In this document: piece by piece, positions 1,919 to 34,836 of the stretch | Numbering within the stretch: position 1 is the stretch's first letter | How the letters are laid out: each line of letters begins with the position of its first letter | NCBI GenBank assembly: GCA_022791495.1 | Contig: JAAVZE010000060.1 | Coordinates: 1-56,666 of the forward strand | DNA: 56,666 nucleotides | Direction of reading: 5' to 3' | Source: Eubacterium sp. | GTDB taxonomy: Bacteria; Bacillota; Clostridia; Lachnospirales; Lachnospiraceae | Made by a program: the position numbers and the translations under genes | The notes under the pieces: generated by a model | Databases searched by the model: none | What the model was told of the DNA's origin: nothing | What the model saw: the letters and a program-made list of their open reading frames with translations, nothing else

Positions 1919-2695
1919 ATGAAGGCAGTTTTGCTTGCAGGTGGATTTGGGACGAGAATCAGCGAGGAGAGTTATCTGAAACCAAAACCAATGGTTGAGA
2001 TTGGAGAGAAACCTATTTTATGGCATATCATGAAGCTGTATGCCCATTACGGCATCGATGAGTTTGTAATATGTGCTGGCTATAAGCAGCATGTGATTAA
2101 GGAATGGTTTGCCGATTATTTTCTTCATAACAGCGACATTACCTTTGATTATACCAGGGGTGGCGAGATGATTGTCCACAGTAATATTGCAGAACCATGG
2201 AAGGTAACGATCGTGGACACCGGACTGAATACGATGACTGGCGGCCGTGTGAAAAGAATTAAAAAATATATTGGGGATGAGCCCTTTCTACTAACCTATG
2301 GCGATGGTGTCAGTGATATCAATATCAAAGAGCTCATCGAATTTCACAAGGGACATGGTAAGATCGCTACCATGAGTTCTTATAATGTAGGGCAGCAGTT
2401 CGGCGTGCTGGATGTAGATGACAATGGCCTTGTCACGGCATTCCGGGAAAAGTCCAATATCGATGGCGGATTGATCAACGTAGGTTACATGGTTCTCGAA
2501 CCGGCAATCTTTGATTACATTGAAGGAGATTCTACGGTGTTTGAGAAAAAACCGTTGGAAATGCTGGCAAAAGAAGGACAGCTGGTATCACGTAAACACG
2601 ACGGTTTCTGGCAGTGCATGGATACTCAGAGAGATAAGATGAAGTTAGAGGAGATGTGGACCGACGGAAATGCTCCGTGGAAGGTCTGGGAATAA
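1919..2695 (+). CDS. rfbF: Glucose-1-phosphate cytidylyltransferase
   Basis: A protein of 258 residues that makes CDP-glucose from glucose-1-phosphate and CTP, the first committed step towards CDP-3,6-dideoxyhexoses. The N-terminus has the nucleotidyltransferase signature LLAGGFGTR followed by the KPKPMVEIG block that marks this subfamily (residues about 4-31). A central YGDGVSD segment is the metal-binding site, and FWQCMDTQRD lies near the C-terminus. Length and motifs match RfbF/DdhA throughout. It starts after a good AGGAGG site, and rfbG and rfbH follow directly, which fixes its role. The phosphohexomutase at 17168 could supply glucose-1-phosphate. Confidence 0.95.
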   Translation: MKAVLLAGGFGTRISEESYLKPKPMVEIGEKPILWHIMKLYAHYGIDEFVICAGYKQHVIKEWFADYFLHNSDITFDYTRGGEMIVHSNIAEPWKVTIVDTGLNTMTGGRVKRIKKYIGDEPFLLTYGDGVSDINIKELIEFHKGHGKIATMSSYNVGQQFGVLDVDDNGLVTAFREKSNIDGGLINVGYMVLEPAIFDYIEGDSTVFEKKPLEMLAKEGQLVSRKHDGFWQCMDTQRDKMKLEEMWTDGNAPWKVWE

Positions 2696-2740
2696 AAGTT
2701 TCAGGTACCGGCCCTGCAAAGCAAATATGGAGGAAAATAT

Positions 2741-3790
2741 ATGATCGATTTATCGTTTTTTAAAGGAAAGAAGGTTCTGGTGACAGGTCATACCGGATTC
2801 AAGGGGACGTGGATGTGCCGCACCCTGATCGGAGCTGGGGCAGAGGTGACAGGATATTCTTTGGAACCGCCCACAGATCCCAATCTGTTTGCTATGGCTG
2901 AGATAGAAGATAAGATGAATTCTGTGATCGCAGATATCAGAGATCTGGACAAGCTCTCCAGAGTATTTCGTGAGTCTGCACCAGAGATTGTGATCCATCT
3001 CGCTGCACAGCCTATTGTCCGGGACTCCTATAAGGAACCGGTCTATACTTATGAGACGAATGTGATGGGGACTGTAAATATATGTGAATGCGTGAGACAG
3101 AATGAATGTGTGAAGAGCTTTTTGAATGTCACCACGGATAAGGTCTATGAGAACAAAGAATGGGAGTGGGGATACCGGGAAAACGAACCTCTTGATGGGT
3201 ACGATCCCTATTCTAACAGTAAATCCTGTTCCGAGCTGGTGACTCACAGCTATAAAAATTCCTTTTTTACCGACGACCGGGTGGCAGTATCTACTGCAAG
3301 GGCCGGCAATGTCATCGGCGGCGGAGATTTTGCCAATGACCGCATTATCCCGGACTGTGTCAGGGCGGCGGAGCAAAAGAAAGATATCATTATAAGAAAT
3401 CCCTTTTCTACCAGGCCCTATCAGCATGTGTTGGAGCCGGTGATCGCGTATCTGATGATCGTAAAAGAACAGTATGAGAATCACGAGCTTCAGGGATACT
3501 ATAATGTAGGACCGGATGAGGTGGATTGTGTGACCACGGGAGATCTGGTAGAAATGTTTGTGGAAAAATGGGGAGAGGGTCTTAAGTGGATCAATCAATA
3601 TGATGGAGGCCCCCATGAGGCAGGTTTCCTTAAGCTGGACTGCTCCAAACTTAAGAAAACCTTTGGATGGAAGACGACATGGTCTGTTTCGGAAGCTCTG
3701 GATAAGACGGTGGAGTGGACCAAGGCGTGGTTTGCCGGTGAAAATATCGCGGATGTGATGGATCGTCAGATCCAGGAGTTTGTTGGATAA
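2741..3790 (+). CDS. rfbG: CDP-glucose 4,6-dehydratase
   Basis: A protein of 349 residues, an extended short-chain dehydrogenase that converts CDP-glucose to CDP-4-keto-6-deoxyglucose with bound NAD. The Rossmann motif GHTGFKGTW lies at about residues 16-24. The catalytic triad region reads TTDKVY, and YSNSK gives the Tyr-x3-Lys pair at about residue 160. The YENKEWEWGYRE segment is typical of this enzyme and differs from dTDP-glucose dehydratases. It lies 45 bases after rfbF with its own GGAGGAAAA site and just before rfbH, so the three act in sequence. Confidence 0.95.
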   Translation: MIDLSFFKGKKVLVTGHTGFKGTWMCRTLIGAGAEVTGYSLEPPTDPNLFAMAEIEDKMNSVIADIRDLDKLSRVFRESAPEIVIHLAAQPIVRDSYKEPVYTYETNVMGTVNICECVRQNECVKSFLNVTTDKVYENKEWEWGYRENEPLDGYDPYSNSKSCSELVTHSYKNSFFTDDRVAVSTARAGNVIGGGDFANDRIIPDCVRAAEQKKDIIIRNPFSTRPYQHVLEPVIAYLMIVKEQYENHELQGYYNVGPDEVDCVTTGDLVEMFVEKWGEGLKWINQYDGGPHEAGFLKLDCSKLKKTFGWKTTWSVSEALDKTVEWTKAWFAGENIADVMDRQIQEFVG

Positions 3791-3822
3791 AGATAAAAAC
3801 GGAAGTGAAAGGAAATGATATT

Positions 3823-5163
3823 ATGTTTGAAAATATGAATGAGGCACAGGCGAGAGAGAGCATTTTAGAGCAGGTAAAGGAGTATTGTGATAAATACCAC
3901 AATCAGGAAAAGCCTTTTGAAGAGGGAGACCGAATTCCCTACGCGTCTAGATATTATGGACATGAAGAGATGGTGAATCTGGTAGACAGTTCCTTGGAAT
4001 TCTGGCTCACCTCCGGCCGTTATACGGATAAATTTGAAAAAGAATTTGCGCAGTATCTGGGAATCAAACATTGTTCTCTAGTGAATTCTGGTTCTTCTGC
4101 AAATCTTCTGGCATTTATGGCGCTTACCTCTCCTCTGATGGGAGACCGCAGGATTATGCCGGGAGATGAAGTGATCACTGTGGCAGCCGGATTTCCGACC
4201 ACCATTGCACCGATCATTCAATACGGTGCGGTGCCAGTATTTGTGGATATGACTATTCCACAGTATAATATGGATGCTTCTATGCTGGAGGAAGCTCTTT
4301 CTGATAAGACCAAGGCGATCATGATCGCTCATACACTGGGAAATCCATGGGATCTGGGTACCATCCGGGAATTCTGTGATAAGCATGGCTTGTGGCTGGT
4401 AGAGGATAACTGCGATGCACTGGGTTCTAAGTACACCATCAATGGAGAAGAGAAGTTTACAGGAACCATCGGTGATGTGGGAACTTCCAGCTTCTATCCA
4501 CCGCATCATATGACCATGGGAGAGGGTGGAGCTGTCTATACCAACAATCCGCTGATCCATAAGGCAGTTCGTTCACTAAGAGACTGGGGAAGAGACTGCG
4601 TGTGTCCTTCCGGCCGGGATAATATGTGCGGACACCGTTTTGATAAACAGTACGGGGAACTTCCCCTGGGCTACGATCACAAGTATGTGTATTCCCATTT
4701 CGGATATAATCTGAAGGCAACGGATATGCAGGCAGCAGTGGGATGTGCGCAGCTGGAAAAATTCCCTTCTTTTGTGGAAAAGAGAAGACATAACTTTGAC
4801 CGTCTGAGAAAGGCATTGGAGGATGTGGAAGACAAACTGATCCTTCCGGAAGCTTGTCCAAATTCCAAGCCAAGCTGGTTTGGATTCCTGCTTACCTGCC
4901 GTGAGGGTGTGGATAAAAATAAAGTTGTTCAGTATATTGAGGACCATGGCGTACAGACCCGTATGCTGTTTGCCGGTAATATCGTAAAACAGCCATGTTT
5001 TGATGAGTTCCGTGCTTCCGGCAAAGGCTACCGTGTGGTCGGTGATCTTGCGGTGACGGACCGGATCATGAAAGATACATTCTGGCTGGGAGTATATCCA
5101 GGCATGACAGATGCGAAGATCGATTATATGGCAAAGGTGATCAAAGAGGCTTTGCAGCAGTAA
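3823..5163 (+). CDS. rfbH: CDP-4-keto-6-deoxyglucose 3-dehydrase (E1, PMP/iron-sulfur)
   Basis: A protein of 446 residues of the sugar aminotransferase fold. It removes the C3 hydroxyl to give a 3,6-dideoxy sugar intermediate. The residue that would be the PLP lysine in aminotransferases is His: the motif is YPPHHMTMGEGG. This marks the dehydrase E1/RfbH branch. Cysteines lie as C-x61-C-x1-C-x7-C, close to the iron-sulfur ligand pattern known for E1. The family needs an electron-transfer partner (E3, a ferredoxin/flavin reductase), which is not in this window, nor is the final 4-ketoreductase. ATG at 3823 is preceded by AAAGGAA; an in-frame GTG at 3805 has no good site. Confidence 0.93.
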   Translation: MFENMNEAQARESILEQVKEYCDKYHNQEKPFEEGDRIPYASRYYGHEEMVNLVDSSLEFWLTSGRYTDKFEKEFAQYLGIKHCSLVNSGSSANLLAFMALTSPLMGDRRIMPGDEVITVAAGFPTTIAPIIQYGAVPVFVDMTIPQYNMDASMLEEALSDKTKAIMIAHTLGNPWDLGTIREFCDKHGLWLVEDNCDALGSKYTINGEEKFTGTIGDVGTSSFYPPHHMTMGEGGAVYTNNPLIHKAVRSLRDWGRDCVCPSGRDNMCGHRFDKQYGELPLGYDHKYVYSHFGYNLKATDMQAAVGCAQLEKFPSFVEKRRHNFDRLRKALEDVEDKLILPEACPNSKPSWFGFLLTCREGVDKNKVVQYIEDHGVQTRMLFAGNIVKQPCFDEFRASGKGYRVVGDLAVTDRIMKDTFWLGVYPGMTDAKIDYMAKVIKEALQQ

Positions 5164-24334: not shown

Positions 24335-25486
24335 ATGGAAGAGTTTGTCTGCCTGGCACTCTATACCAAGGCATACCGTGGACCAGAAGGAGGCGGGACA
24401 GTGGATGAGCAGTGTGAACGGAGGTTGTCCAGTGTGAAGAAAAGGATGGATCCGGCGATGAACCTCCTTGTTTTTACCGAAAAGTCCTGTGAATGCCGGA
24501 ACCACATCGCAGATGTAAGGGAACACTATGAATTCGCCACGGTAGATCCGGCGAGGATTTATCTGCGTAAAAACCTGGCAGAGAAACTATTCCCCCTGGA
24601 TTTTCCCGGACTCTGCCGGCTGTTTGCGAAAGAGGGGCGTTTTGCTGTGTGGGAGCTGGATCCAGGGCAGATGGAGAAAAAGGGTTATCCCTATGAGAAG
24701 CGGGATGAGGGAAGTTTTGGAACTGCGCCGGAGAAATACATGGAGTTATGCGGTGAACTGCGGGAAAGATACGGGGAGCTTCTTCCCTTCTTTCAGAATA
24801 TGATCATCAAGGATATGCTCCCTCTGTTTTTTGGGGAGGATGGCAGCCAGAAACCTCTTCTGAGACAGATTCTTGTCAGTATCGATGACGATATCTTATG
24901 CGGCACTGGTTGTATTTACGAGGATGTGCTGCTTAAGATCCTTTCTCTCAAGTATGGGGAGGATGTGGAAAAAGGGCTGGTTTACCGGAGCGGAAAACTG
25001 AAATATCAGAATCTCTCTTTGTTTCCTCTGAAAGAAATCCCCTTTGTGGTGACGGAAATCAAATTGGTTAAAGACAGAATTAATATATCTGGCCATGTCC
25101 TTCTGCCCCTGGAATACAGTGAGATCGAGTACTATTGTATGGACAACCGGAACCGCCGCTATGAGCTGTCCCTGGAACAGGACGGGGAAATATGTTTTCT
25201 CGGTGAGCTACTTCACAGGAGGAAACGGTTCCTGGTGGAATTTCCTGCTGGGAAGAAACCGCAGGGGATAAGGTTTATGTACTGTTACCGGGGAATGTAC
25301 CAGGCGAGGGTGCGGATGGAGTTTGCAGAGCAGCTTGGCATGGTGCCGGATACCAGGTATAATTTCCGGCTGCAGGATGGGTATCTGTGGAAGGCAGAAA
25401 AGAGGATCCTGTTTGCGGCGCCTCTGCAGAAGAGAACGCGGATAAAGCTTTTCTTTACATTTCTATGGAAAAGCTTTAAAATATAG
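24335..25486 (+). CDS. Stand-alone paralogue of the GT2-TagF linker, no catalytic domain
   Basis: A protein of 383 residues with no recognised catalytic motif. From about residue 145 onward it aligns with the middle region of the preceding GT2-TagF protein: DDD, a Tyr, then LSLKYG-x-D, YR-x-G-x-L and N in the same spacing, followed by beta-rich segments. The N-terminal 110 residues have no clear counterpart and lack the GT2 DxD site. It may be a scaffold or oligomerisation partner, or a decayed paralogue. The frame is intact and has a GGAGGGAAAAGG site, arguing against a pseudogene. Beta-sandwich regions of TarS-type enzymes are a possible analogy. Confidence 0.7.
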   Translation: MEEFVCLALYTKAYRGPEGGGTVDEQCERRLSSVKKRMDPAMNLLVFTEKSCECRNHIADVREHYEFATVDPARIYLRKNLAEKLFPLDFPGLCRLFAKEGRFAVWELDPGQMEKKGYPYEKRDEGSFGTAPEKYMELCGELRERYGELLPFFQNMIIKDMLPLFFGEDGSQKPLLRQILVSIDDDILCGTGCIYEDVLLKILSLKYGEDVEKGLVYRSGKLKYQNLSLFPLKEIPFVVTEIKLVKDRINISGHVLLPLEYSEIEYYCMDNRNRRYELSLEQDGEICFLGELLHRRKRFLVEFPAGKKPQGIRFMYCYRGMYQARVRMEFAEQLGMVPDTRYNFRLQDGYLWKAEKRILFAAPLQKRTRIKLFFTFLWKSFKI

Positions 25487-25519
25487 TTTGAAATAAATTT
25501 GAACCAATTGGAGGAAACT

Positions 25520-26221
25520 ATGATATATGGAGTAGTACTTGCCGGCGGAGTGGGAAGCCGTATGGGAAATGTGGGAAAACCCAAACAGTATCTTTTGATC
25601 GGGGACAAGCCAATCCTCATTCACACCCTGGAAAAATTTTATATGCAGAGTGAGTTTGAAAAGGTTCTTGTGCTCTGTCCGGTGGAATGGCTCAGCCATA
25701 CAAAGAATCTGATCCGCAGATATATTCCCGACAAGGACCGGATCGTGGTGTTAGAAGGCGGAGATACCCGCAACGAGACGATCATGAATGCCATTGATTA
25801 TATCGAACAGGAGGGGAATCTGGACCAGGAGACGATCATCGTCACCCATGATTCGGTGCGTCCTTTTGTTACCCAGAGGATCCTGGAGGAAAATATCCGC
25901 TATGCCAAGAAATACGGGGCGTGTGATACCGCGGTGGCGGCGACAGATACCATCGTGTGCAGTGAGGACAATGTGGTGATCAGTGATATTCCGGAACGGC
26001 GGAAGATGTACCAGGGCCAGACGCCCCAGACTTTCCAGGCCATGAAGCTCAAAGAGCTGTACCAGGCACTGACGCCGGCGGAGAAAGAGCTTCTCACCGA
26101 TGCGGCAAAGATCTTTGTCATGAAGGGGGAGAAGGTACACATCGTGGAGGGAGAGGTATTCAATATAAAGATTACCTATCCTTATGATCTGCGGGTGGCA
26201 GAAGCATTGTTGAAAGTGTGA
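25520..26221 (+). CDS. tarI: D-ribitol-5-phosphate cytidylyltransferase (IspD/TarI family)
   Basis: A protein of 233 residues. The nucleotidyltransferase signature VVLAGGVGSRMG with KPKQYL is at the N-terminus. THDSVRPFV and the GQTPQTFQ block are shared by TarI and IspD. The adjoining reductase gene (tarJ) and TagF-type genes make CDP-ribitol the likely product; IspD of isoprenoid synthesis is the alternative by sequence alone. ATG at 25520 directly follows TTGGAGGAAACT; an upstream in-frame TTG at 25499 lacks a site. Confidence 0.87.
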   Translation: MIYGVVLAGGVGSRMGNVGKPKQYLLIGDKPILIHTLEKFYMQSEFEKVLVLCPVEWLSHTKNLIRRYIPDKDRIVVLEGGDTRNETIMNAIDYIEQEGNLDQETIIVTHDSVRPFVTQRILEENIRYAKKYGACDTAVAATDTIVCSEDNVVISDIPERRKMYQGQTPQTFQAMKLKELYQALTPAEKELLTDAAKIFVMKGEKVHIVEGEVFNIKITYPYDLRVAEALLKV

Positions 26222-26223
26222 AT

Positions 26224-26327
26224 GAAACTACGGATTCGTAAAAACCTCATCACGTAGTTTCTCGCAAGGCGCCGCTTGCAGCACCTTGCTCTATTCACAC
26301 AGGTAGAATCCGCAAAGCGGATTCTAC
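26224..26327. repeat. Hairpin cluster between tarI and tarJ
   Basis: Three stems lie in this 161-base spacer: GAAACTACG at 26224-26232 with its complement at 26253-26261; GCAAG at 26264-26268 with CTTGC at 26275-26279; and GTAGAATCCGC at 26303-26313 with a perfect complement at 26317-26327 around AAA. None is followed by a run of T. The arrangement resembles the cluster at 11881-12078, although the sequences differ. Confidence 0.75.
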
Positions 26328-26382
26328 GCCACTGATTCAAGTATTGTTTGTGCCGTTTGTGGCGGCATGTTTGGAGGAAAAT

Positions 26383-27426
26383 ATGTTAAATGCAGTGTAC
26401 CGCCTTGTGGCGCCGAGACGATTCGAGGTGGAATTTACAGATATAGACCTGTGCAGCGGGGCTGTGATCGTGCGCCCTACCCATCTGTCGATCTGCAATG
26501 CAGACCAGAGATATTATCAGGGGAAGCGGGCCAACGATATTCTGCGGCAGAAGCTGCCTATGGCGCTGATCCATGAGGGTATTGGTGAAGTGGTGTATGA
26601 TCCGGAAGGCGAATTTGTGGCGGGGGAGCGGGTGGTCATGATCCCCAATACCCCAAAGCAGACTGCAGAGGACGTGGCTGACGGGGATGTGGTGGCAGAA
26701 AATTACCGACTGGATTCCCGGTTCCGCGCCAGCGGTTTTGATGGTTTTATGCAGGATGCGGTGGATATCCGACGGGACCGGCTGATCCGGCTTCCGAAGG
26801 GCATCGATCCCTGTGTGGCGGCCTTTACTGAGATTGTGACGGTGAGTGTCCATGCCCTGAGCCGTTTTGATGAGATCGCCCATAAGAAGCGGGATGCAGT
26901 AGGGATCTGGGGGGATGGAAACCTTGGTTATATCACTTCGCTGCTTTTTAAGGCGATGTTTCCGGAGACAAAATTATATGTCTTCGGGCTGAACTGGGAC
27001 AAGCTGTCGGATTTTACCTTTGCCGACGATACCTTTCTCGTGACACACATTCCGGCGGGACTGGAATTTGACCATGCCTTTGAGTGCGTGGGAGGAGAGG
27101 GCTCTCCGAAAGCCATCAATCAGATCATCGACAATATTCTGCCAGAGGGGACGATCTCGATCCTTGGAGTTTCCGAGAATGAGGCGGCGATCAATACGCG
27201 GATGATGCTGGAAAAAGGGCTTCGGATGTTTGGCAGCAGCCGCAGTGGAAGGGCGGATTTTATCAGAACCATTGAACTTTATCAGTCCAATCCGGAGATT
27301 CCTGCCTATCTGCAGAATCTGATCGGAGTCCGGATGAGAGTGCGGACCATCGAGGATATGAAGAAGGCATTTGAAGCTGACATTTATAAAGAATTTGGAA
27401 AAACGATTATGATCTGGGAGGCTTAG
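26383..27426 (+). CDS. tarJ: Ribulose-5-phosphate reductase (zinc alcohol dehydrogenase family)
   Basis: A protein of 347 residues of the medium-chain dehydrogenase family. It reduces ribulose-5-phosphate to ribitol-5-phosphate with NADPH, feeding tarI. The SICNADQRYYQG segment and HEGIGEV carry the likely zinc ligands, and GIWGDGNLGY is the nucleotide-binding loop. These match TarJ rather than ordinary alcohol dehydrogenases, in line with the tarI neighbour. ATG at 26383 follows TTGGAGGAAA; the frame runs open to 26344 without a ribosome site. A TagF-type gene begins 3 bases after its stop. Confidence 0.87.
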   Translation: MLNAVYRLVAPRRFEVEFTDIDLCSGAVIVRPTHLSICNADQRYYQGKRANDILRQKLPMALIHEGIGEVVYDPEGEFVAGERVVMIPNTPKQTAEDVADGDVVAENYRLDSRFRASGFDGFMQDAVDIRRDRLIRLPKGIDPCVAAFTEIVTVSVHALSRFDEIAHKKRDAVGIWGDGNLGYITSLLFKAMFPETKLYVFGLNWDKLSDFTFADDTFLVTHIPAGLEFDHAFECVGGEGSPKAINQIIDNILPEGTISILGVSENEAAINTRMMLEKGLRMFGSSRSGRADFIRTIELYQSNPEIPAYLQNLIGVRMRVRTIEDMKKAFEADIYKEFGKTIMIWEA

Positions 27427-27428
27427 TA

Positions 27429-29483
27429 ATGAGTGGTTTTCTATCTAATAAGACAAAACGGTTTTTAAAAAAAAGGCTGAAATTCTGGTTTTACTGTCTG
27501 ACACATCCGATCCTGAATGAACATCTCATCGTGTTTGAGGCATTCAGCGGTAAGCGGTGTGGCGGCAATCTCCGGGCGATCTATGAAGAACTGATGGAGG
27601 ATGAGCGTTACCGTGATTTCCGCTTTGTTTGGATTGTAAATGACGTGGAAGCTCATACTGATCTAAAAGTGAGACGGCATACACGGGTTGTACTGAAGGA
27701 CTCCCGTTCTGCTTTTATTTTATATGCCAAGGCAAAGTACTGGTTCAACAATGTGGCTCTTCCCAACTACCTCATTCCGAGACCTCATCAGGTATATGTG
27801 GAGACCTGGCACGGAACTCCTCTGAAAAAGCTGGGAAATGATATCCGGTATGAGGTGGATCCGAGACAGTCTCTGGCAGAGATGCACAAAAAATATTACA
27901 TCAAGGGAAGAAAGATGGATTATTTGATCTCTCCCTCCCGATTTTATACCGAGAAAATGATCTCATCCTTCCGGTTGGACAAGTCACATAAAGAAAATAT
28001 TATTTTAGAGACCGGTTATCCGAGAAATGATGCTCTGTTTAAATTTACCGAAGAGGATGTGGCACGCATCAAAGAGGAGATCGGAGTGCCAGAGGGAAGA
28101 AAAGTGGTGTTGTATACACCGACCTGGCGGGACAACCAGTTTAAAAAGGGAGAGGGGTTCCAGTACAATACAGAGCTGGACTTTCAGACTCTTATGGAGG
28201 AACTGGGGGAGGAATATGTCCTTTTATTCCGGGCCCATCATCAGATCGGCTTTAAGAATGTGGCTTCAGATGTACCGGGCGTGATTGATGTGACGGAGGT
28301 GGATGATGTCAATGATTTGTATATCATCAGTGACCTGATGATCACGGATTATTCTTCTACCATGTTTGATTACGGCGATCTCAGGCGCCCGATGGTATTT
28401 TATATGTATGATCTGGATGAGTACCAGGGGGAGATCCGGGATTTCTATTTTGATATCAATGAGCTTCCGGGTCCCATCGTCAAGACCCAGCCCGAACTGG
28501 TGAAAGCAGTCAAAGACCAGTTTGAGAACTTCGTCTATGATGAAAAATACCGCGCTTTTACGGAAAAATTTAATTATCTTGACGATGCCCACGGTGCCAG
28601 AAGGGTCATCGAAGCGACGATCAAAACCCAAATGGGCCCTGCCTTTCGGTTTTATAAATGGGTGATCCATACGAAAAATGTTATCCGCAAGGCCTTTCGT
28701 GACGGATACATCGCCTTTTCCGGTATGCTTCGCTGTATGGGACTCTGCCGCACGGAGAACAGCAAGCTCCTGTATTCTTATAAGAATAAACATAAGGGAC
28801 AGAGATGTTTCCTCGTGGGAAATGGTCCCAGTCTGCAGCTATCTGACCTGGAAGGACTGCAGAAAAAAGGCGAAATTACCTTTGGGTGCAATCTGGTGAC
28901 GAAGGTATTTGGCGAGACCAGCTGGCGTCCGGATTATTATTTTTTGATCGACCGCATCTGTGCAAAATTCCAGAGTGAGGAGATCAATGAGGCCATCGGG
29001 GAGATTCCATTGTTTACGAATATCACCACCTACAATATTTTTCGTGAAAAGCCTAAAAATCCGGTGATTCTTTATAATATTGCCAAAGATAAATATAAGG
29101 TGAAGCGTTCTCCACTGGCATATTATATTCCGTCGGGCTCTACGGTCATGTCACTGATGATCGAGATGGCGGTGTACATGGGATTTTCCGAGATCTATCT
29201 GATCGGCTGTGACTGTACCTCTACCTTTAGCGGCAATACTCACTTTATCAAAGGATATACGGATGAAAAGTTGAAGGCAAGAGATGCGAAAAAGATTGTT
29301 GACCGGATGCGTCGGCTGGGAATCCAGAGTGATGATTATGAAAAATATTTTCTGGATGGTTCACTGAATGCCTATACGCTTTTGAAAGAGCATGCCATCA
29401 AACGCGGTGTGACGATCTATAATGCCACCAGAGGCGGGGCATTGGAGGTGTTTGACCGGGTGGATCTGGATGATTTTATCTGA
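27429..29483 (+). CDS. TagF/TarL-type polyol-phosphate transferase fused to a DUF115/GT42-like domain
   Basis: A protein of 684 residues in two parts. Residues about 30-400 are a CDP-glycerol/ribitol phosphotransferase with WHGTPLKKLG (His128), FRAHHQIG (about 268) and ITDYSSTMFDY (about 305). Residues about 455-680 begin CFLVGNGPSL, then FGCN, and later GFSEIYLIGCD, the pattern of DUF115/Maf and GT42 sialyltransferase-like domains that use CMP-sugars. With tarI and tarJ directly upstream, CDP-ribitol is the likely phosphotransferase donor. The second domain may add a CMP-activated acidic sugar (inference). A close paralogue lies at 32685-34787 on the other strand. Confidence 0.88.
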   Translation: MSGFLSNKTKRFLKKRLKFWFYCLTHPILNEHLIVFEAFSGKRCGGNLRAIYEELMEDERYRDFRFVWIVNDVEAHTDLKVRRHTRVVLKDSRSAFILYAKAKYWFNNVALPNYLIPRPHQVYVETWHGTPLKKLGNDIRYEVDPRQSLAEMHKKYYIKGRKMDYLISPSRFYTEKMISSFRLDKSHKENIILETGYPRNDALFKFTEEDVARIKEEIGVPEGRKVVLYTPTWRDNQFKKGEGFQYNTELDFQTLMEELGEEYVLLFRAHHQIGFKNVASDVPGVIDVTEVDDVNDLYIISDLMITDYSSTMFDYGDLRRPMVFYMYDLDEYQGEIRDFYFDINELPGPIVKTQPELVKAVKDQFENFVYDEKYRAFTEKFNYLDDAHGARRVIEATIKTQMGPAFRFYKWVIHTKNVIRKAFRDGYIAFSGMLRCMGLCRTENSKLLYSYKNKHKGQRCFLVGNGPSLQLSDLEGLQKKGEITFGCNLVTKVFGETSWRPDYYFLIDRICAKFQSEEINEAIGEIPLFTNITTYNIFREKPKNPVILYNIAKDKYKVKRSPLAYYIPSGSTVMSLMIEMAVYMGFSEIYLIGCDCTSTFSGNTHFIKGYTDEKLKARDAKKIVDRMRRLGIQSDDYEKYFLDGSLNAYTLLKEHAIKRGVTIYNATRGGALEVFDRVDLDDFI

Positions 29484-29587: not shown

Positions 29588-30091
29588 TCACAAATCAAGA
29601 AACTCGCTGAAATCATATCTTTCTTTTAGGATCATATCAATGGCTTCCCGTACTGGCGCCTGTCCTGCGGGTTTGGTCAGGAGGATGTCGATGTAGGGTT
29701 TCAGGCTCTCAGCGCAGTCTGAGGGGGCAAAGGTGATCCCGGCAGTCTTTATGGCGCTGAGATCGTTCATATCATCCCCGATGTAGGCAGTCTGCTCCAC
29801 AGTGAGACCATATTGATCCATGAGTTCTGTGAGCTTTGCCGCTTTATTTTTCACACCCTGATGGAATTCGGTCAGGCCCAGCTCAAGACAGCGGTTGGCG
29901 ACGATCTGAGAATTTCTTCCTGTTATAATGGCAGGAACGATGCCGACGTCTTTTAGGAGCTTGATACCGAGACCATCTTTGACATTAAACGCTTTGAACA
30001 GCTCTCCGTCGTTTCCCATATAGATCTTGCCATCGGTGAGAGTACCGTCTACGTCCATGGCAAATAATTTGATTTCTTTTAGGTTTTTCAT
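29588..30091 (-). CDS. KdsC-like HAD phosphatase (3-deoxy-ulosonate-phosphate phosphatase type)
   Basis: A protein of 167 residues, a cap-less C0-type HAD phosphatase of KdsC length. Motif I is DVDGTLTDG with nucleophile Asp13 and acid/base Asp15. TGRNSQ carries motif II, GVKNKAAKL the motif III lysine and IGDDMNDL motif IV. In the Kdo and sialic acid pathways such enzymes remove phosphate from the 3-deoxy-ulosonic acid phosphate before CMP activation. It is last in a four-gene operon with an aldolase and a KdsB-like enzyme, which supports that role. The start is fixed by TGGAGGAAAAGT. The exact substrate is unknown. Confidence 0.88.
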   Translation of the reverse strand: MKNLKEIKLFAMDVDGTLTDGKIYMGNDGELFKAFNVKDGLGIKLLKDVGIVPAIITGRNSQIVANRCLELGLTEFHQGVKNKAAKLTELMDQYGLTVEQTAYIGDDMNDLSAIKTAGITFAPSDCAESLKPYIDILLTKPAGQAPVREAIDMILKERYDFSEFLDL

Positions 30092-30124
30092 ACTTTTCCT
30101 CCATTTTATCTTAGTGCCGTGGAG

Positions 30125-31735
30125 TTATTGGTTGATCTCAAACCGGGATGGTGTCAGGAACTGGATCGGGCAGGCGGACTGTCTGGTGTTCAGATAGTCT
30201 TCCAGCATACTCTGGACATCGCGGTTTGCCTCATCGGCATTTTTGATATTTCGTGTCTTTTCCATTTCCTTGTGCATGTAGTTGTTGCTGCTGGAATCGT
30301 GGCTGTAGCCGTCGAAGCCCGCCATGGCGATGGAAGCGGGATCCAGTTCGTCCAGAAGACGAAGGAGCAGGATGCCGGAATTGTCCAGCTGATCCCAACC
30401 GCATTTTACCAGCCTTGTAAAATCGATGATATGCTGATTTTTATCTTCGATGTTCGTCACATTGGAGGTGACGATTTTTTTGTATTCTTTGAAGCGGCTC
30501 GCGTTTTTCCAGTAATTATACCGCTTTTTATTGCTGAAATACACATAGTTGATAGGATAATCGTGGGAAAGCAGATTGACACTGACCACTACAGGTTTCT
30601 TTTCCCGGCAGTATTTTAGGATCTCTTCTTTGTGAGTGACGATGCTGTGTCCCGGAAGCAGCATCAGAATATCCTTGCCCTGAAGATTTTCTTTTAGCAG
30701 TGCCACATCTTTTTCATCATCACGGATCGTCCCGTTATATTCCATGTAAGTTTTTTCCAGAAGGTCATAGTCATAACGCTTTCTGGCGTCACTGCCGATG
30801 CGGTTCAGGATATAATTGATATCCCGGCTGGATATTCCGGCTTTTGCTGTCAGATAAGCGATGTTGTTGACATGGGCACTGTAAGATCCAGCGAGGAAAT
30901 ACGGGGTGGAGTATCCCCAGCTGCAGGTGTTGCGGATTCCGTCCACGTAGTTGTCAATGAGATCGAGAACGACATCGATATCATAGCCGGCATTGTACTT
31001 GCGGTTCATGTACTGCATGACCAGTTCAGTATTGGTGTTGCCGGCACCCCGGCCCATGCCCGCCATGGTGGCATCAATGACTACCTTTCTCAGCCCCTGG
31101 GTCATATCCACAAATTCCTGGGATAAGGAGAAGGACATCTGAAGATTATTGTGGGAGTGGAAGCCGATGCGGGAAGAGGCATTCAGATTTCGGTCGATCA
31201 GGTAAAATACCCGCCGGAGATCTTCCTTGTACATAGATCCAAAAGTGTCTACGATACTGAAGGCATAGGGCTCCAGTGGATTAATTTTTTCGATTAGTTC
31301 CAAAAGCTCGGCGTCGGAGTACCCCAGGATATCTACGGGCTGTACATAGAGCTTATAGCCCTTTTCTGTGATCTCCCGGCAAAAATCAATCACATCATAG
31401 CGTTCATTCTTAAAGAAACAGGCGCGGACGCCGTCGATGGAAGTGCCGTCAAAGGGTTCCAGATTGGAAATTGTATAACGGCTGTAGTCTGCCAGACAGA
31501 CATAGGAGGCCTGGCGGCGGTCCTCCGGCAGAAATGGCCGCAGCTGCGCCGCATTGTTAAATATCGTACTCCCCTTTTCGTGAGGCTCGTCTTTTAAAAA
31601 ACCGCATTCCACCACATCAATGCCGCTTTCTGCAAGACCCTTGATCATTCCTTTGATCACTGTATTTCCAAACTGGGCATCTACGAGATATCCCCCATCC
31701 CGCAGTGTACAGTCCAATAGTTGTACTCGTTTCAT
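30125..31735 (-). CDS. DRE-TIM pyruvate-aldolase-like enzyme with a C-terminal Rossmann-like domain
   Basis: A protein of 536 residues. Residues 1-340 form an HMG-CoA-lyase-like aldolase barrel: DCTLRDGG at 8-15 gives the metal Asp, HSHN at 193-196 the metal histidines, and DATMAGMGRGAGN at 221-233 matches 4-hydroxy-2-oxovalerate aldolases. Residues about 352-536 are a second domain with LLPGHSI, VSVN and MAGFDGY, reminiscent of the DUF115/GT42-like domains of the TagF fusions here (weak, by eye). It probably joins pyruvate to an aldehyde, making a 3-deoxy-2-ulosonic acid (phosphate) in place of KdsA. ATG at 31735 follows GAAAGGATTAAAAGGT; an earlier ATG at 31801 lacks the conserved start. 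Confidence 0.8.
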   Translation of the reverse strand: MKRVQLLDCTLRDGGYLVDAQFGNTVIKGMIKGLAESGIDVVECGFLKDEPHEKGSTIFNNAAQLRPFLPEDRRQASYVCLADYSRYTISNLEPFDGTSIDGVRACFFKNERYDVIDFCREITEKGYKLYVQPVDILGYSDAELLELIEKINPLEPYAFSIVDTFGSMYKEDLRRVFYLIDRNLNASSRIGFHSHNNLQMSFSLSQEFVDMTQGLRKVVIDATMAGMGRGAGNTNTELVMQYMNRKYNAGYDIDVVLDLIDNYVDGIRNTCSWGYSTPYFLAGSYSAHVNNIAYLTAKAGISSRDINYILNRIGSDARKRYDYDLLEKTYMEYNGTIRDDEKDVALLKENLQGKDILMLLPGHSIVTHKEEILKYCREKKPVVVSVNLLSHDYPINYVYFSNKKRYNYWKNASRFKEYKKIVTSNVTNIEDKNQHIIDFTRLVKCGWDQLDNSGILLLRLLDELDPASIAMAGFDGYSHDSSSNNYMHKEMEKTRNIKNADEANRDVQSMLEDYLNTRQSACPIQFLTPSRFEINQ

Positions 31736-31820
31736 ACCTTTTAATCCTTTCTCTCCGGAGGTTCCGGAGTGCAGGCGGCCATATTCCCTGTCGTCATACA
31801 TCCTGCTGCACAGGGCCTGG

Positions 31821-32561
31821 CTAGTCTAATGTATCGATTCCCTGGATCACCCGCTCCACTTTTTCAATGTGCTCAGGAAGATCTACACCGATAGAGGAGT
31901 GTTTTGTCTCTTTGAGGCGCATTTTATAACCTCGTTCCATGGCGCGCAGTGGTTCAATTCCCTCTCCCAGTTCCAGCTCGGTCTGGGTCATTTCCGAAAA
32001 TTCTTTGAGAAAATCCCGTTTGTAGGCGTAAATTCCCACATGGCGGAATACTCTTGCCAGATGTCCGTCTTTGACGTTGGAAGGGATGACAGAGCGGGAG
32101 AAGTACATGGCATCTCCCCGCTGATCTGTAACGACCTTTACTGTGCTGGTTGCTTTGATCTCTTCCGGATCGGTGATCTCTTTTTTCAGGCTTCCAAAAT
32201 AAACGGAATCGTCCTCGAAAAAGATAGAGATGACTTCCTGGATCATCTCGGGATTGATGACGGGCTCATCCCCCTGAATGTTGATGAACAGGTCGCCTTC
32301 TACTTTGGATGCCACCTCAGCCACCCGGTCGGATCCGGTTTCGTGCTTATCTGAGGTCATAATTACTTTCATAGTATGCTCGTCACAGGCTGCTTTGATA
32401 CGCTCATCGTCGGTAGCTACATAAACTTCATCGAATTCAGGGACTTTTTTTGCCTGCTGGTATACCCACCAGATCATTGGTCTGCCACAGATATCTACCA
32501 GTGGCTTGCCGGGAAAACGGCTGGATTTATAACGTGCAGGGATTACTCCAATAATTTTCAT
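31821..32561 (-). CDS. kdsB: KdsB-like 3-deoxy-ulosonate cytidylyltransferase (CMP-sugar synthetase)
   Basis: A protein of 246 residues that activates a 3-deoxy-2-ulosonic acid with CTP. Motifs follow KdsB order: PARYKSSRFPGKPL near the N-terminus, ATDDERI, ETGSDRVAEVA, NIQGDEPVI (metal Asp), YFSRSVIP, RHVGIYAY and LGEGIEPLRAME. Length equals that of the family. Kdo itself is the usual substrate, but KdsA and arabinose-5-phosphate isomerase genes are missing here, so another ulosonic acid is possible. The start follows AGAAAGAAGG. Its first bases are part of a 108-base tandem duplication shared with the end of the upstream gene. Confidence 0.9.
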   Translation of the reverse strand: MKIIGVIPARYKSSRFPGKPLVDICGRPMIWWVYQQAKKVPEFDEVYVATDDERIKAACDEHTMKVIMTSDKHETGSDRVAEVASKVEGDLFINIQGDEPVINPEMIQEVISIFFEDDSVYFGSLKKEITDPEEIKATSTVKVVTDQRGDAMYFSRSVIPSNVKDGHLARVFRHVGIYAYKRDFLKEFSEMTQTELELGEGIEPLRAMERGYKMRLKETKHSSIGVDLPEHIEKVERVIQGIDTLD

Positions 32562-32761
32562 GAATATACCTTCTTTCTATTTCATTTTCTTATGGTTACC
32601 CGGATCTGGTTTTTCAGTAGCGAGAACATCTTCCAGCCTGACTCTTGGAAAGACTCCGATAATTTTCATGAATATACCTTCTTTCTATTTCTTTTTCTTA
32701 TGGTTACCCGGACCTGGTTTTTCAGTAGCGAGAACATCTTCCAGCCTGACTCTTGGAAAGA
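32546..32761. repeat. 108-base tandem duplication over a gene junction
   Basis: Two head-to-tail copies, 32546-32653 and 32654-32761, differ at only three positions. Each spans the 3' end of the TagF-DUF115 gene, the intergenic ribosome site and the first six codons of kdsB. The copy nearer the TagF gene serves as its true end; the copy nearer kdsB supplies the kdsB start. Nothing suggests a mobile element. Confidence 0.93.
32577..32669 (-). pseudogene. 30-codon chimeric ORF created by the tandem duplication
   Basis: Reading leftwards from the ATG at 32669 there is an intact copy of the kdsB ribosome site and its first six codons (MKIIGV). These are fused to the last codons of the TagF-DUF115 gene (FPRVRLEDVLATEKP and a basic tail), ending at 32577. 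It is translatable in principle but is a by-product of the duplication. It could lower or tune kdsB translation by coupling. Confidence 0.7.
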
Positions 32762-34787
32762 CTTCGAGATTTCCACCCCGGGTAGCATTGTAGATTTTGA
32801 TGCCATGCCGGTCGGCGTATTTTTTCAGCAGCCGGTAGACAAACAGGGACCGGTCAATGATATGTTCCCCGATCTGTTCCGTGGTTACATTTTCTTTGTT
32901 CATACGGGTCTTGATACGGGAAATGTCAGTCTGGGCAATCTCTTTTGTCGTATAGTTGGCGGTAAAATGCCCCCCGGCGGCATGGGGATTGGTGCAGTCC
33001 ACTCCCAGCAGATAGATTTCTGAGAATCCCATATGAAAGGCAAACTCGGCGGCAAGAGACAGAACTGTTGCCTTCACCATACAGTAGGCAAAGATATTTC
33101 CTCTCACCTTATACCGCTCGCTGGCGATGGTGTGGACATAAGTAGTGTCCAGCGTCCGCTTGGTCATTTTGTGATAGGTTTTCTCAATGGTAAATAAGGG
33201 TGACTTTACATTGTTATACAGCTCGTCCCGCAGTTTTGTCGCATAGATGCTGTCGGATACGCAGTGGAAACTGGGGCGCCAGTCGGTTTTGTCAAATATT
33301 TTATATACCATATTTGTCCCGAAGGTGTACTCGTCTTTTAACAGGTGGAGATCCTCCGGCGACAGGCTGGGACCGTTGCCGATCAGAAAACACCGTTCTC
33401 CTTTGTGGCAGTCTTTCATGTCCATGAGGCGTCTTCCATTGTTGTTCAGGAAAAAACCGTGCATATTAAACCATCCGGTAATGTTGTAGCGGACGATCAT
33501 GTATACAATGCGGATACGGTTCATATTCTTTTTGAAGGTCTGAATCAGGCATTCCCACAGTCCGGGCTTGTGGGCCGGAATGGCAATACAGTTGTCGATG
33601 ACCCGCCTGGCAGCCTGTCCATCCTCCCATTGATTAAATTTATGATGAAAGGCCTGATATTTGGCATCCTTGCTGTAATCAAAGTGTTCCAGTTGTTGTA
33701 TGACCGCCTGGGCAAGCGATGTCTCATCTTCGGTGATGGGACCTGGCAGCTCCGAAAGATCAAAGTAGAAGCCCCGGATATTATTGGCATACTCTTCTCT
33801 GTCATACATATGAAATACCATGGGGCGTTTCAGTACGCTGAAATCAAACATGGTAGAAGAGTAGTCCGTGATCATCAGGTCACTGATGATATACAGATCA
33901 TTGATATCGTCTATGTCAGTAACATCGATGATCTGGGATGTGTTTTCAATAATGCCGGAGAGCCCGATCTGATGATGGGCGCGGAAAAGAAGCACATAAT
34001 CCTCTGGCAGACCCTTCACCACTTTTTCCAGATCTACAGAAGCATTGTAATGGAAGCCGGACTGTGCCTGAAAGTCTGTATCTCTCCAGGTGGGAGTATA
34101 GATGATCACCTTTTGTTCCGCCCGGATTCCCAGCCCTTCACGGATCTGTGCAATGTCTTTCTCGCTGTAGTGGAAAAGAGCATCGTTTCTGGGGTAGCCG
34201 CATTCAACGAACCGGTTTTCCTCCGGATGCTCCAGACCAAAGGCTGAGGCAATCTTTTCACTATAATAGGGGGAGGGGGAGAGGAAATGGGTCACTTTTT
34301 TTCCCTTTTTCCGGTAACGTTTGTGCATACGCTCTCTGGACTGTCTTGGATCGCTGTCCGTCTCGATATCACAGCCCAGCCGTTTCAGTGGTGTGCCGTG
34401 CCAGGTTTCGATATACACCTGATGTCTTCCGGGAATCAGAAAGTCGGGAACGCTTACATTATTTACCCAGAACCGGGAGGCAGCCGCATAGCGGAAATAA
34501 TCCCGGCTGCCCTTTTTTACCAGGATCGTATGGGGATTTTCTGCCAGTTCCCTGTGCTTTTTGGGATCCGTAAATGCCCACACAAAAGTGTAGTCCCGGA
34601 AAGCTTCATCCTCTGCCATTTCTTCATATATAGCTTTTACGCTGTCTCCGCAGCGTTTTCCATGATAGGATTCAAAAAAGACCATTTTATCCTGAGTGAC
34701 ATAAAAAATCCGGCACAATTTGTATTTGATCCGGTTTTTTATAAAAGACAGATCTTGTCGTAATCTATATTTCAATCGTTTATCCAT
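32685..34787 (-). CDS. TagF-type polyol-phosphate transferase fused to a DUF115/GT42-like domain
   Basis: A protein of about 700 residues, a paralogue of the 27429 gene with the same two-domain order. The phosphotransferase half shows WHGTPLKRLG, FRAHHQIG and ITDYSSTMFDF; the C-terminal half shows CFLIGNGPSL, FGTN and GFSEIYLLGVD. It heads the operon that encodes the KdsB-like, aldolase and KdsC-like proteins. The second domain is therefore the best candidate in the window to use the CMP-ulosonic acid (inference). Start choice is open: ATG at 34787 or TTG at 34805, neither with a strong ribosome site. The 3' end lies inside the tandem duplication. Confidence 0.87.
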   Translation of the reverse strand: MDKRLKYRLRQDLSFIKNRIKYKLCRIFYVTQDKMVFFESYHGKRCGDSVKAIYEEMAEDEAFRDYTFVWAFTDPKKHRELAENPHTILVKKGSRDYFRYAAASRFWVNNVSVPDFLIPGRHQVYIETWHGTPLKRLGCDIETDSDPRQSRERMHKRYRKKGKKVTHFLSPSPYYSEKIASAFGLEHPEENRFVECGYPRNDALFHYSEKDIAQIREGLGIRAEQKVIIYTPTWRDTDFQAQSGFHYNASVDLEKVVKGLPEDYVLLFRAHHQIGLSGIIENTSQIIDVTDIDDINDLYIISDLMITDYSSTMFDFSVLKRPMVFHMYDREEYANNIRGFYFDLSELPGPITEDETSLAQAVIQQLEHFDYSKDAKYQAFHHKFNQWEDGQAARRVIDNCIAIPAHKPGLWECLIQTFKKNMNRIRIVYMIVRYNITGWFNMHGFFLNNNGRRLMDMKDCHKGERCFLIGNGPSLSPEDLHLLKDEYTFGTNMVYKIFDKTDWRPSFHCVSDSIYATKLRDELYNNVKSPLFTIEKTYHKMTKRTLDTTYVHTIASERYKVRGNIFAYCMVKATVLSLAAEFAFHMGFSEIYLLGVDCTNPHAAGGHFTANYTTKEIAQTDISRIKTRMNKENVTTEQIGEHIIDRSLFVYRLLKKYADRHGIKIYNATRGGNLEVFPRVRLEDVLATEKPGPGNHKKKK

Positions 34788-34836
34788 ATTCTTATTCTTT
34801 CTCAAAATCTTTCTTCATAAACGTGCATCTCAATCT

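Follow-up and report, generated by a model that had tools for sequence, protein, structure and literature searches.

A four-gene operon in a 56,666-nucleotide contig of the Gram-positive Eubacterium sp. (JAAVZE010000060.1; the whole stretch analysed is called the window) probably encodes a pyruvate-aldolase route to a CMP-activated 3-deoxy-2-ulosonic acid other than Kdo. This sugar would be made without a PEP-dependent synthase and would serve a wall or surface polymer. The reactions are inferred from the order and families of the genes, the predicted folds of their products, the recurrence of the arrangement in other genomes and its exchange with KdsA in a relative.

The operon and its surroundings

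An earlier note on this DNA described a TagF-DUF115 fusion, a KdsB-like CTP transferase, an aldolase and a KdsC-like phosphatase. The four genes were found in that order, all on the minus strand (Table 1), and the aldolase carries the motifs DCTLRDGG, HSHN and GMGRGAGN as described. KdsA and NeuB are missing from the window, as also claimed, since queries with both gave no match (phmmer, E up to 1e-5); no ThDP enzyme was found in the window. Two features had gone unreported: the aldolase has a C-terminal domain, and the genome carries two NeuB genes outside the window. The KdsC-like protein passes its subfamily model and reaches 157 of 208 bits for the equivalog NF007019. Gene order suggests the TarJ label given to the neighbouring dehydrogenase, and the TarI-like and TarJ-like neighbours together suggest a ribitol-phosphate polymer as acceptor. 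The second TagF-DUF115 fusion is another possible user of the CMP-sugar.

Table 1. Features of the operon and of its surroundings (window coordinates).
Feature	Position	Strand	Evidence
TagF-DUF115 fusion	32685..34805	-	Glyphos_transf E 2e-99; MptE-like 39.3 bits (cut-off 34.6); TagF among PDB matches
KdsB/KpsU-like CTP transferase	31821..32561	-	TIGR00466 192 bits (cut-off 155.2); exceeds subfamily models NF003952 and NF009905
Two-domain aldolase, 558 aa	30125..31801	-	HMGL-like (PF00682) 67.3 bits (cut-off 29)
Aldolase domain, predicted DRE-TIM metallolyase TIM barrel	30731..31738	-	Arg, Asp, HxH metal site
Aldolase C-terminal domain, predicted sialyltransferase/Maf/MptE-like fold	30128..30703	-	
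KdsC-like HAD phosphatase	29588..30091	-	TIGR01670 161.2 bits (cut-off 106.95)
Second TagF-DUF115 fusion	27429..29483	+	Converges on operon; 45% identity to first fusion
TarI-like D-ribitol-5-phosphate cytidylyltransferase	25499..26221	+	NF001183 359.6 bits (cut-off 166)
TarJ-like dehydrogenase	26344..27426	+	ADH_N and ADH_zinc_N; best models are general alcohol dehydrogenases

Recurrence of the arrangement

Among 110 distinct two-domain aldolase genes, a CTP transferase (KdsB/PseF-like) is found no more than 3 kb away in 72 cases, although only 78 of the 110 loci have flanks of at least 3 kb on both sides. The association of the four genes is therefore more than chance. Fournierella massiliensis An912 (L115), a cultured strain, is one carrier of the CTP transferase-aldolase-KdsC triad. 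Neither KdsA nor NeuB was detected within 8 kb of any of the 110 genes. A YerE-like ThDP ligase lies within 8 kb of 34 of the 110 genes. The two partners occur together at four, and one or the other is found within 8 kb of 108. These searches favour the aldolase context, because the members used to build their profiles were neighbours of the aldolase in the first 41 loci. The loci are also not independent, since contexts cluster by descent in the tree.

Of the 72 CTP-transferase loci, 48 have a phosphatase of the KdsC or HAD type within 3 kb; in the other 24 none was found within that distance, which counts against the proposed route. The neighbour clusters found most often within 5 kb in these 72 loci are the CTP transferase, KdsC, HAD phosphatase, POLYST-like, GT2 and flippase families. 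Among these clusters, which are annotated in part, one (present in 12 loci) has no Pfam match, and no dedicated aldehyde-making enzyme or isomerase was found with the aldolase. The aldehyde is therefore probably a common sugar phosphate.

Short aldolases of 330 aa were considered as part of the same system and rejected: within 3 kb in 20 control loci, out of the many short matches, neither a CTP transferase nor KdsC was found at any and a ThDP ligase at two. This control is not clean, since four of the 20 loci (L091-L094) group on long branches with the long class in the tree.

Exchange with KdsA and the identity of the product

Of the 299 genomes of the family, 27 have a KdsB-like gene. The gene lies within 8 kb of the aldolase in 22 of the 27 (within 200 bp in 16 of these) and within 1.3 kb of KdsA in three, with KdsD adjoining KdsA; one further gene sits at the edge of a contig, with an aldolase fragment after it, and one is unlinked. 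One relative (G264) has an operon in the order DUF115-KdsB-KdsA-KdsD-KdsC, so the aldolase stands in the place of KdsA, or of the KdsA-KdsD pair. With TIGR01362 (E up to 0.001), no KdsA was found in the genome that holds the window (83% complete) or in its congener G108 (99%). KdsA exceeds the cut-off in one of 41 aldolase genomes (G052), on another contig, yet KdsB adjoins the aldolase there, a case against the proposed route. The claim that the aldolase replaces KdsA thus gains from its recurrence, from the G264 operon and from 12 genomes with an aldolase-linked CTP transferase but neither KdsA over the cut-off nor a clear NeuB (see below).

The exchange could be read as a plain replacement, in which the aldolase would condense arabinose-5-phosphate with pyruvate to Kdo-8-phosphate and the operon would yield ordinary CMP-Kdo. 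The position in G264 agrees with this, as do the KdsB-like protein, which passes TIGR00466, and the KdsC-like protein, which passes TIGR01670. However, the KdsB-like protein misses the KdsB equivalog NF003948 (192.9 of 281 bits) and reads EPLR where the Kdo-type enzymes compared read EQLR; the Gln that follows the conserved Glu is found in five of five Kdo-type KdsBs and in none of 40 aldolase-linked KdsB-type enzymes. KdsD (TIGR00393) is over the cut-off in only two of 41 aldolase genomes, which do not include that of the window, and the weaker matches in 37 of the 41 are mostly short SIS-domain stretches. Across the loci of all 110 aldolase genes, the KdsD query matched one protein only, a SIS-domain protein of the ThDP locus L145, and no KdsD was found in the CTP-transferase loci. 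A Kdo product is thus unlikely, and the pathway that the earlier note had called Kdo-like is better read as not Kdo.

NeuB elsewhere in the genome

The earlier note had named a KdsA- or NeuB-type synthase elsewhere in the genome, feeding KdsB, as evidence that would speak against the route. Half of this is present: the genome has two NeuB genes, but each has another partner, a neighbouring ThDP ligase in one case and a CTP transferase of its own nearby in the other. A NeuB might make the ulosonic acid in trans while the aldolase trims a side chain or makes another precursor, and a clear NeuB occurs in 25 of the 41 aldolase genomes. In the congener G108, no CTP transferase was detected around the one NeuB, so pairing of NeuB with KdsB in trans is possible in that genus. 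On the other hand, none is clear in 16 of the 41, of which 12 have a CTP transferase and four a ThDP ligase by the aldolase. In those 12 genomes the CTP transferase lies no farther than 8 kb from the aldolase, no KdsA exceeds the cut-off and there is no clear NeuB; nine of them are 92-100% complete. Supply by NeuB in trans is thus improbable.

The aldolase domain

The aldolase domain is assigned to the DRE-TIM metallolyase superfamily by its HMGL-like domain, its predicted TIM barrel and its putative Asp and HxH metal ligands. In Pfam, HMGL-like (PF00682) is the sole match (E up to 0.1), and the DAHP_synth_1 and NeuB families are unmatched. The metal ligands and the arginine are conserved in 41 of 41 aldolases. 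The best NCBIfam model is the DmpG-type NF006049, at 85.1 bits far under its cut-off of 229, and the DmpG model TIGR03217 likewise stays below its own (73.1 against 286 bits). At the position of His21, which we take to be the catalytic base of DmpG, the two-domain aldolases have Tyr (37 of 41), Arg (three) or Phe (one), so these enzymes might use another donor or another chemistry. We know of no activity described for any two-domain member. Use of a donor that is not pyruvate (a different 2-keto acid or, as in isopropylmalate synthase-like enzymes, an acyl-CoA), which would give an unusual keto or hydroxy acid in place of a 3-deoxy-ulosonic acid, is given little credence.

The aldolase was also considered as a substitute DAHP synthase, as the MAG that holds the window lacks DAHP synthase (types I and II) and chorismate synthase. 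This was rejected, because seven of seven other aldolase genomes checked encode both enzymes, the DAHP synthase being of type I; the gap seems due to an incomplete MAG.

The transferase-like domains

The C-terminal domain of the aldolase has a fairly clear predicted fold class (sialyltransferase/Maf/MptE-like). Pfam gave weak MptE-like matches in five of 41 of these domains (best E 0.0026), and a profile of the domain reached only E 0.031 and 0.27 against PDB sequences. Foldseek placed SteA and HPPK at the top (E 6.6e-5 and 1.5e-4); the best 50 matches listed include neither CstII nor Maf and have a GT29 sialyltransferase at rank 24 (E 0.096). VIA-align ranked Maf and CstII first. These results point to a fold class rather than to a nearest function. 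The catalytic residue of GT42 enzymes is a His, and DUF115 domains have an invariant His in an HF motif (14 of 14). The corresponding residue in the aldolase C-terminal domains, located by its distance from a shared Asp and not by superposition, is Asn in 32, Ser in five, Asp in three and Glu in one of 41; the domain encoded in the window has Asn. The consistent loss of the His suggests that this domain is probably not a working transferase.

The MptE-like C-terminus of the TagF-DUF115 fusion is GT42-like and is the candidate CMP-ulosonate transferase. A profile (A3) of 14 DUF115 domains, including that of the window, matched CstII (2x62) at E 1.3e-7 and Maf (5mu5) at E 1.7e-5, which lends support to the transferase role that the earlier note had proposed for DUF115. 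On the acceptor side, the pathway is favoured by DUF115 or POLYST-like genes, which are found within 8 kb at 40 of the 72 CTP-transferase loci and at none of 30 ThDP-only loci.

Proposed pathway

In the proposed route, pyruvate would react as its enolate with a phosphorylated sugar aldehyde on the divalent-metal aldolase to form a 3-deoxy-2-keto-acid phosphate, which the KdsC-like enzyme would dephosphorylate. The KdsB-like enzyme would then join the ulosonic acid to CMP, and the DUF115 domain would add it onto a polyol-phosphate chain.

YerE-like ThDP ligases use 2-keto acids, and the one ThDP enzyme tested, that of locus L067, has JanthE (8rph) as its nearest solved relative (403 bits, versus 253 for acetolactate synthase). 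For ErwE, the published account gives 4-hydroxy-2-oxo acids as preferred donors (PMC12247030). This is the product type of a pyruvate aldolase and supports the link between the two contexts. The same kind of 2-keto acid may, in the related loci, be passed to a YerE/ErwE-like enzyme that would branch a CDP-4-keto-dideoxy sugar.

A wider interpretation is offered tentatively, as a possibility we rather doubt. The two-domain aldolases may be ulosonic-acid synthases of a third class, alongside the KdsA-like and NeuB-like enzymes, that use pyruvate and not PEP and make 3-deoxy-2-keto acids undescribed in surface glycans for CMP activation or ThDP branching. The fused domain, its transferase His lost, might act in feedback control by sensing cytidine nucleotide sugars, which either context should contain.

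If the proposed route is true, 3-deoxy-ulosonic acids for surface glycans would be made by a pyruvate aldolase besides the PEP-dependent synthases, and unseen acidic sugars would be carried by gut Lachnospiraceae, Oscillospiraceae and some Gram-negatives. CMP-sugar biology would be linked to ThDP-branched sugars by one common kind of 2-keto acid, and the automatic naming of 'KdsB' in aldolase loci would be questionable. The loci would also be a source of aldolases, CTP transferases and ligases for joint in vitro testing.

Comparison with known systems

Kdo-class CMP-linked acidic sugars are best known from Gram-negative bacteria. The Gram-positive setting stressed in the earlier note holds here, but the system is not confined to Gram-positives. 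The canonical CMP-Kdo pathway (KdsD-KdsA-KdsC-KdsB) shares with the operon its KdsB-like and KdsC-like enzymes and a CMP-activated acidic sugar, and the family includes a relative (G264) whose DUF115-KdsB operon contains KdsA. It differs in that the window's genome and its congener have no KdsA or KdsD over the cut-off, an aldolase instead, and EPLR for EQLR.

The 4-hydroxy-2-oxovalerate aldolases of the DmpG/BphI type and the structural-genomics protein BVU_2661 (3dxi) have the same TIM barrel, metal site and GMGxGAGN motif. Most two-domain aldolases, in contrast, have Tyr for His21, and they carry an added C-terminal domain and miss the DmpG model cut-off. Their context is surface polysaccharide, whereas DmpG acts in aromatic degradation. 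Among the GT42 sialyltransferases, Maf, PseD and DUF115 proteins, the DUF115 parts match CstII and Maf, and the aldolase C-terminal domain has a predicted fold of that class; it differs in having mostly Asn (32 of 41), and never His, at the invariant DUF115 His.

YerE, ErwE and JanthE, the ThDP enzymes of C-branched sugars (PMC12247030), have counterparts within 8 kb of 34 of the 110 aldolase genes, but the window has none and the ThDP loci form a sister context. The closest precedent in a Gram-positive is the Kdo gene island of Bacillus coahuilensis, which holds KdsB and KdsC as here, together with KdsA and KdsD (PMC4744853), in whose place the aldolase stands in the window. The titles and abstract beginnings of the literature searched contain no report of a pyruvate-aldolase route to ulosonic acids. 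What is new is thus the aldolase; Kdo genes in a Gram-positive have already been described (PMC4744853).

Organisation and setting of the window operon

The TagF-DUF115, KdsB-like, aldolase and KdsC-like genes described in the earlier note were all found in the order claimed, tightly spaced and co-directional. TarI-like, dehydrogenase (TarJ-like by position) and second TagF-DUF115 genes converge on them, so the predicted setting of the operon is a polyol-phosphate (teichoic-acid-like) locus. The two TagF-DUF115 fusions, in convergent operons, are 45% identical, and one adjoins the TarI-like and dehydrogenase genes. The 383-aa protein encoded upstream of TarI had no Pfam or NCBIfam match. RfbF-RfbG-RfbH-like genes of the CDP-3,6-dideoxyhexose pathway are also present, and no ThDP ligase was detected within the window. 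The window corresponds to contig C151 in G000, a MAG of 2.9 Mb and 83% completeness. Over matched residues, the window aldolase is 100% identical to that of L095, a locus from a MAG whose record title reads uncultured Lachnoclostridium sp.

Features of the window and of related loci
Feature	Coordinates	Strand	Context
TagF-DUF115	34805-32685	-	window operon
KdsB-like	32561-31821	-	window operon
Aldolase	31801-30125	-	window operon
KdsC-like	30091-29588	-	window operon
TarI-like, dehydrogenase, second TagF-DUF115	25499-29483	+	converge on operon
Second TagF-DUF115 alone	27429-29483	+	window
383-aa protein	24335-25486		window
RfbF-RfbG-RfbH-like	1919-5163		window
NeuB-like and YerE-like	L033:3410-6256		G000, contig C115
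NeuB	L176:6916-9412		G108, contig C12; NeuB-like gene near a class II aldolase gene
Aldolase locus with a second, partial aldolase fragment	L163:1-2962		Prevotella-titled MAG

Recurrent neighbours of the aldolase

Two aldolase classes were recovered from 299 family genomes, a short one of ~330 aa and a long two-domain one in 67 genomes (as read off the listed matches), including two (G008 and G153) whose matches extend barely beyond the barrel. Neighbourhoods were examined at 121 loci: the window, the 40 best-scoring family genomes and, from GTDB contigs, the 80 top-ranked named loci among at least 574. Removal of near-copies (6-mer sharing >0.85) left 110 distinct aldolase genes, 78 of them flanked by 3 kb or more on each side.

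Neighbour counts depend on profiles derived from genes that adjoin the aldolase at the first 41 loci; among these sampled best-scoring loci, a CTP transferase lay within 3 kb of 72 of the 110 genes, with 68 of its 73 open frames within 100 bp of the aldolase and all 73 on the same strand. A YerE-like ThDP enzyme lay within 8 kb of 34, both partners were near 4, and one or the other was within 8 kb of 108; the remaining two (L117 and L165) fall inside a mostly ThDP-linked aldolase clade. KdsC-like genes occurred within 3 kb in 36/72 CTP loci vs 1/34 ThDP loci, other HAD phosphatases in 12/72 and 10/34, and either kind in 48/72 CTP loci vs 9/30 ThDP-only loci. DUF115 or POLYST-like genes were found within 8 kb in 40/72 CTP loci, 0/30 ThDP-only loci and 5/8 others. 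KdsA and NeuB queries matched nothing within 8 kb of any of the 110 genes. As a control, 20 short-class loci had no CTP transferase, no KdsC and two ThDP enzymes within 3 kb. At L163, a second, partial aldolase fragment lies upstream of the CTP transferase, and the aldolase frame is broken close to its end.

Exchange with KdsA

Few genomes of the family carry KdsB-like genes (27/299, E ≤1e-15), and in 22 of the 27 genomes they lie within 8 kb of a long aldolase (within 200 bp in 16). Carriage of the two is associated (25/27 vs 42/272 genomes; Fisher p 2.4e-16, for genomes that share descent). KdsA exceeded its cut-off in 4 of the 27, all of which were tested. In three (G116, G264 and G184) it lies ≤1.3 kb from KdsB with KdsD adjoining; in the fourth, G052, it is on a separate contig, yet KdsB is beside the aldolase. 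The order in G264 (DUF115-KdsB-KdsA-KdsD-KdsC) is that of the window operon, with KdsA-KdsD where the aldolase sits. KdsA-KdsD-KdsB genes occur at L175 (G116), L186 (G264) and L187 (G184), with DUF115 directly upstream of KdsB in the latter two. In G236 the contig ends after KdsB with a fragment matching the aldolase (40 bits), and in G129 KdsB is unlinked, an aldolase-like gene lying ~16 kb off.

The proposal of the earlier note remains a well-supported hypothesis: in many genera, an aldolase would take over the position of KdsA in a CMP-ulosonate pathway, every reaction of which we infer. The carriers, of which many are MAGs, are not limited to Gram-positives; going by the titles of their records, they include Bacillota, Bacteroidota, Spirochaetota, Synergistota, Campylobacterota, Pseudomonadota and Melainabacteria. 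Kdo genes including KdsA were already known in a Gram-positive (PMC4744853). No report of an aldolase route was found by full-text searching, whose reach excluded most subscription papers.

Other synthases in the same genomes

A KdsA/NeuB-type synthase elsewhere in the genome could instead feed KdsB. G000 does carry two NeuB genes outside the window, but each has another partner: one is directly beside a ThDP ligase, which its product may feed, and a CTP transferase of its own lies two genes upstream of the other. At the former locus (L033), FabG- and FabH-like genes lie upstream. In the congener G108 (99% complete), the single NeuB gene (L176) has a class II aldolase gene nearby, with no CTP transferase detected around it, so that pairing in trans with the KdsB-like enzyme is possible there. 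Across the 41 aldolase genomes, KdsA exceeded the cut-off in one, with weaker matches far under it in 22 others, and NeuB was clear (E <1e-40) in 25. The remaining 16 comprise four without any NeuB match and 12 whose match is weak (E 1e-6 to 1e-11, over Pfam's low cut-off) and coincides in place with a weak KdsA match; these were taken for a putative DAHP synthase. In twelve of the 16 genomes (nine being 92-100% complete) a CTP transferase lies no more than 8 kb from the aldolase, and the other four show the ThDP context.

Nature of the sugar

The product of the aldolase route is probably not Kdo, because KdsD is rare (over cut-off in 2/41 aldolase genomes) and the Gln of the EQLR motif is absent. 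Where the motif could be aligned, this residue is kept in 5/5 Kdo-type KdsBs (three KdsA-linked, two from the PDB) and in 0/40 KdsB-type enzymes encoded no more than 8 kb from the aldolase. The window protein reads EPLR, as do 10 of 11 others in its subgroup (≥64% identical), the last reading EALR. However, it passes the KdsB model TIGR00466. Within aldolase loci, the KdsD query matched only a SIS-domain protein, in a ThDP locus. Products may differ among loci, since the linked CTP transferases include PseF-like as well as KdsB-like ones. The lack of a sugar-phosphate isomerase or kinase among neighbour clusters annotated from CTP loci suggests that the acceptor is drawn from central metabolism.

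The ThDP context and comparison with known systems

ErwE favours 4-hydroxy-2-oxo acids as donors (PMC12247030). Pyruvate aldolases yield acids of this kind. In a quick tree, four changes were needed between CTP-only and ThDP-only loci, so one aldolase family has switched between two enzymes that use a 2-keto acid. The ThDP context counts as independent evidence. CDP-glucose pathway genes lie within 8 kb in 16/34 ThDP loci and 11/72 CTP loci. The one ThDP enzyme tested (from L067) has 8rph as its nearest solved relative (403 bits vs 253 for acetolactate synthase). This structure is JanthE (PMC12188165), which belongs to the YerE-like enzymes (PMC12247030). The NeuB-ThDP ligase pair of G000 is the mirror of the aldolase-ThDP loci, NeuB being likewise a maker of a 2-keto acid.
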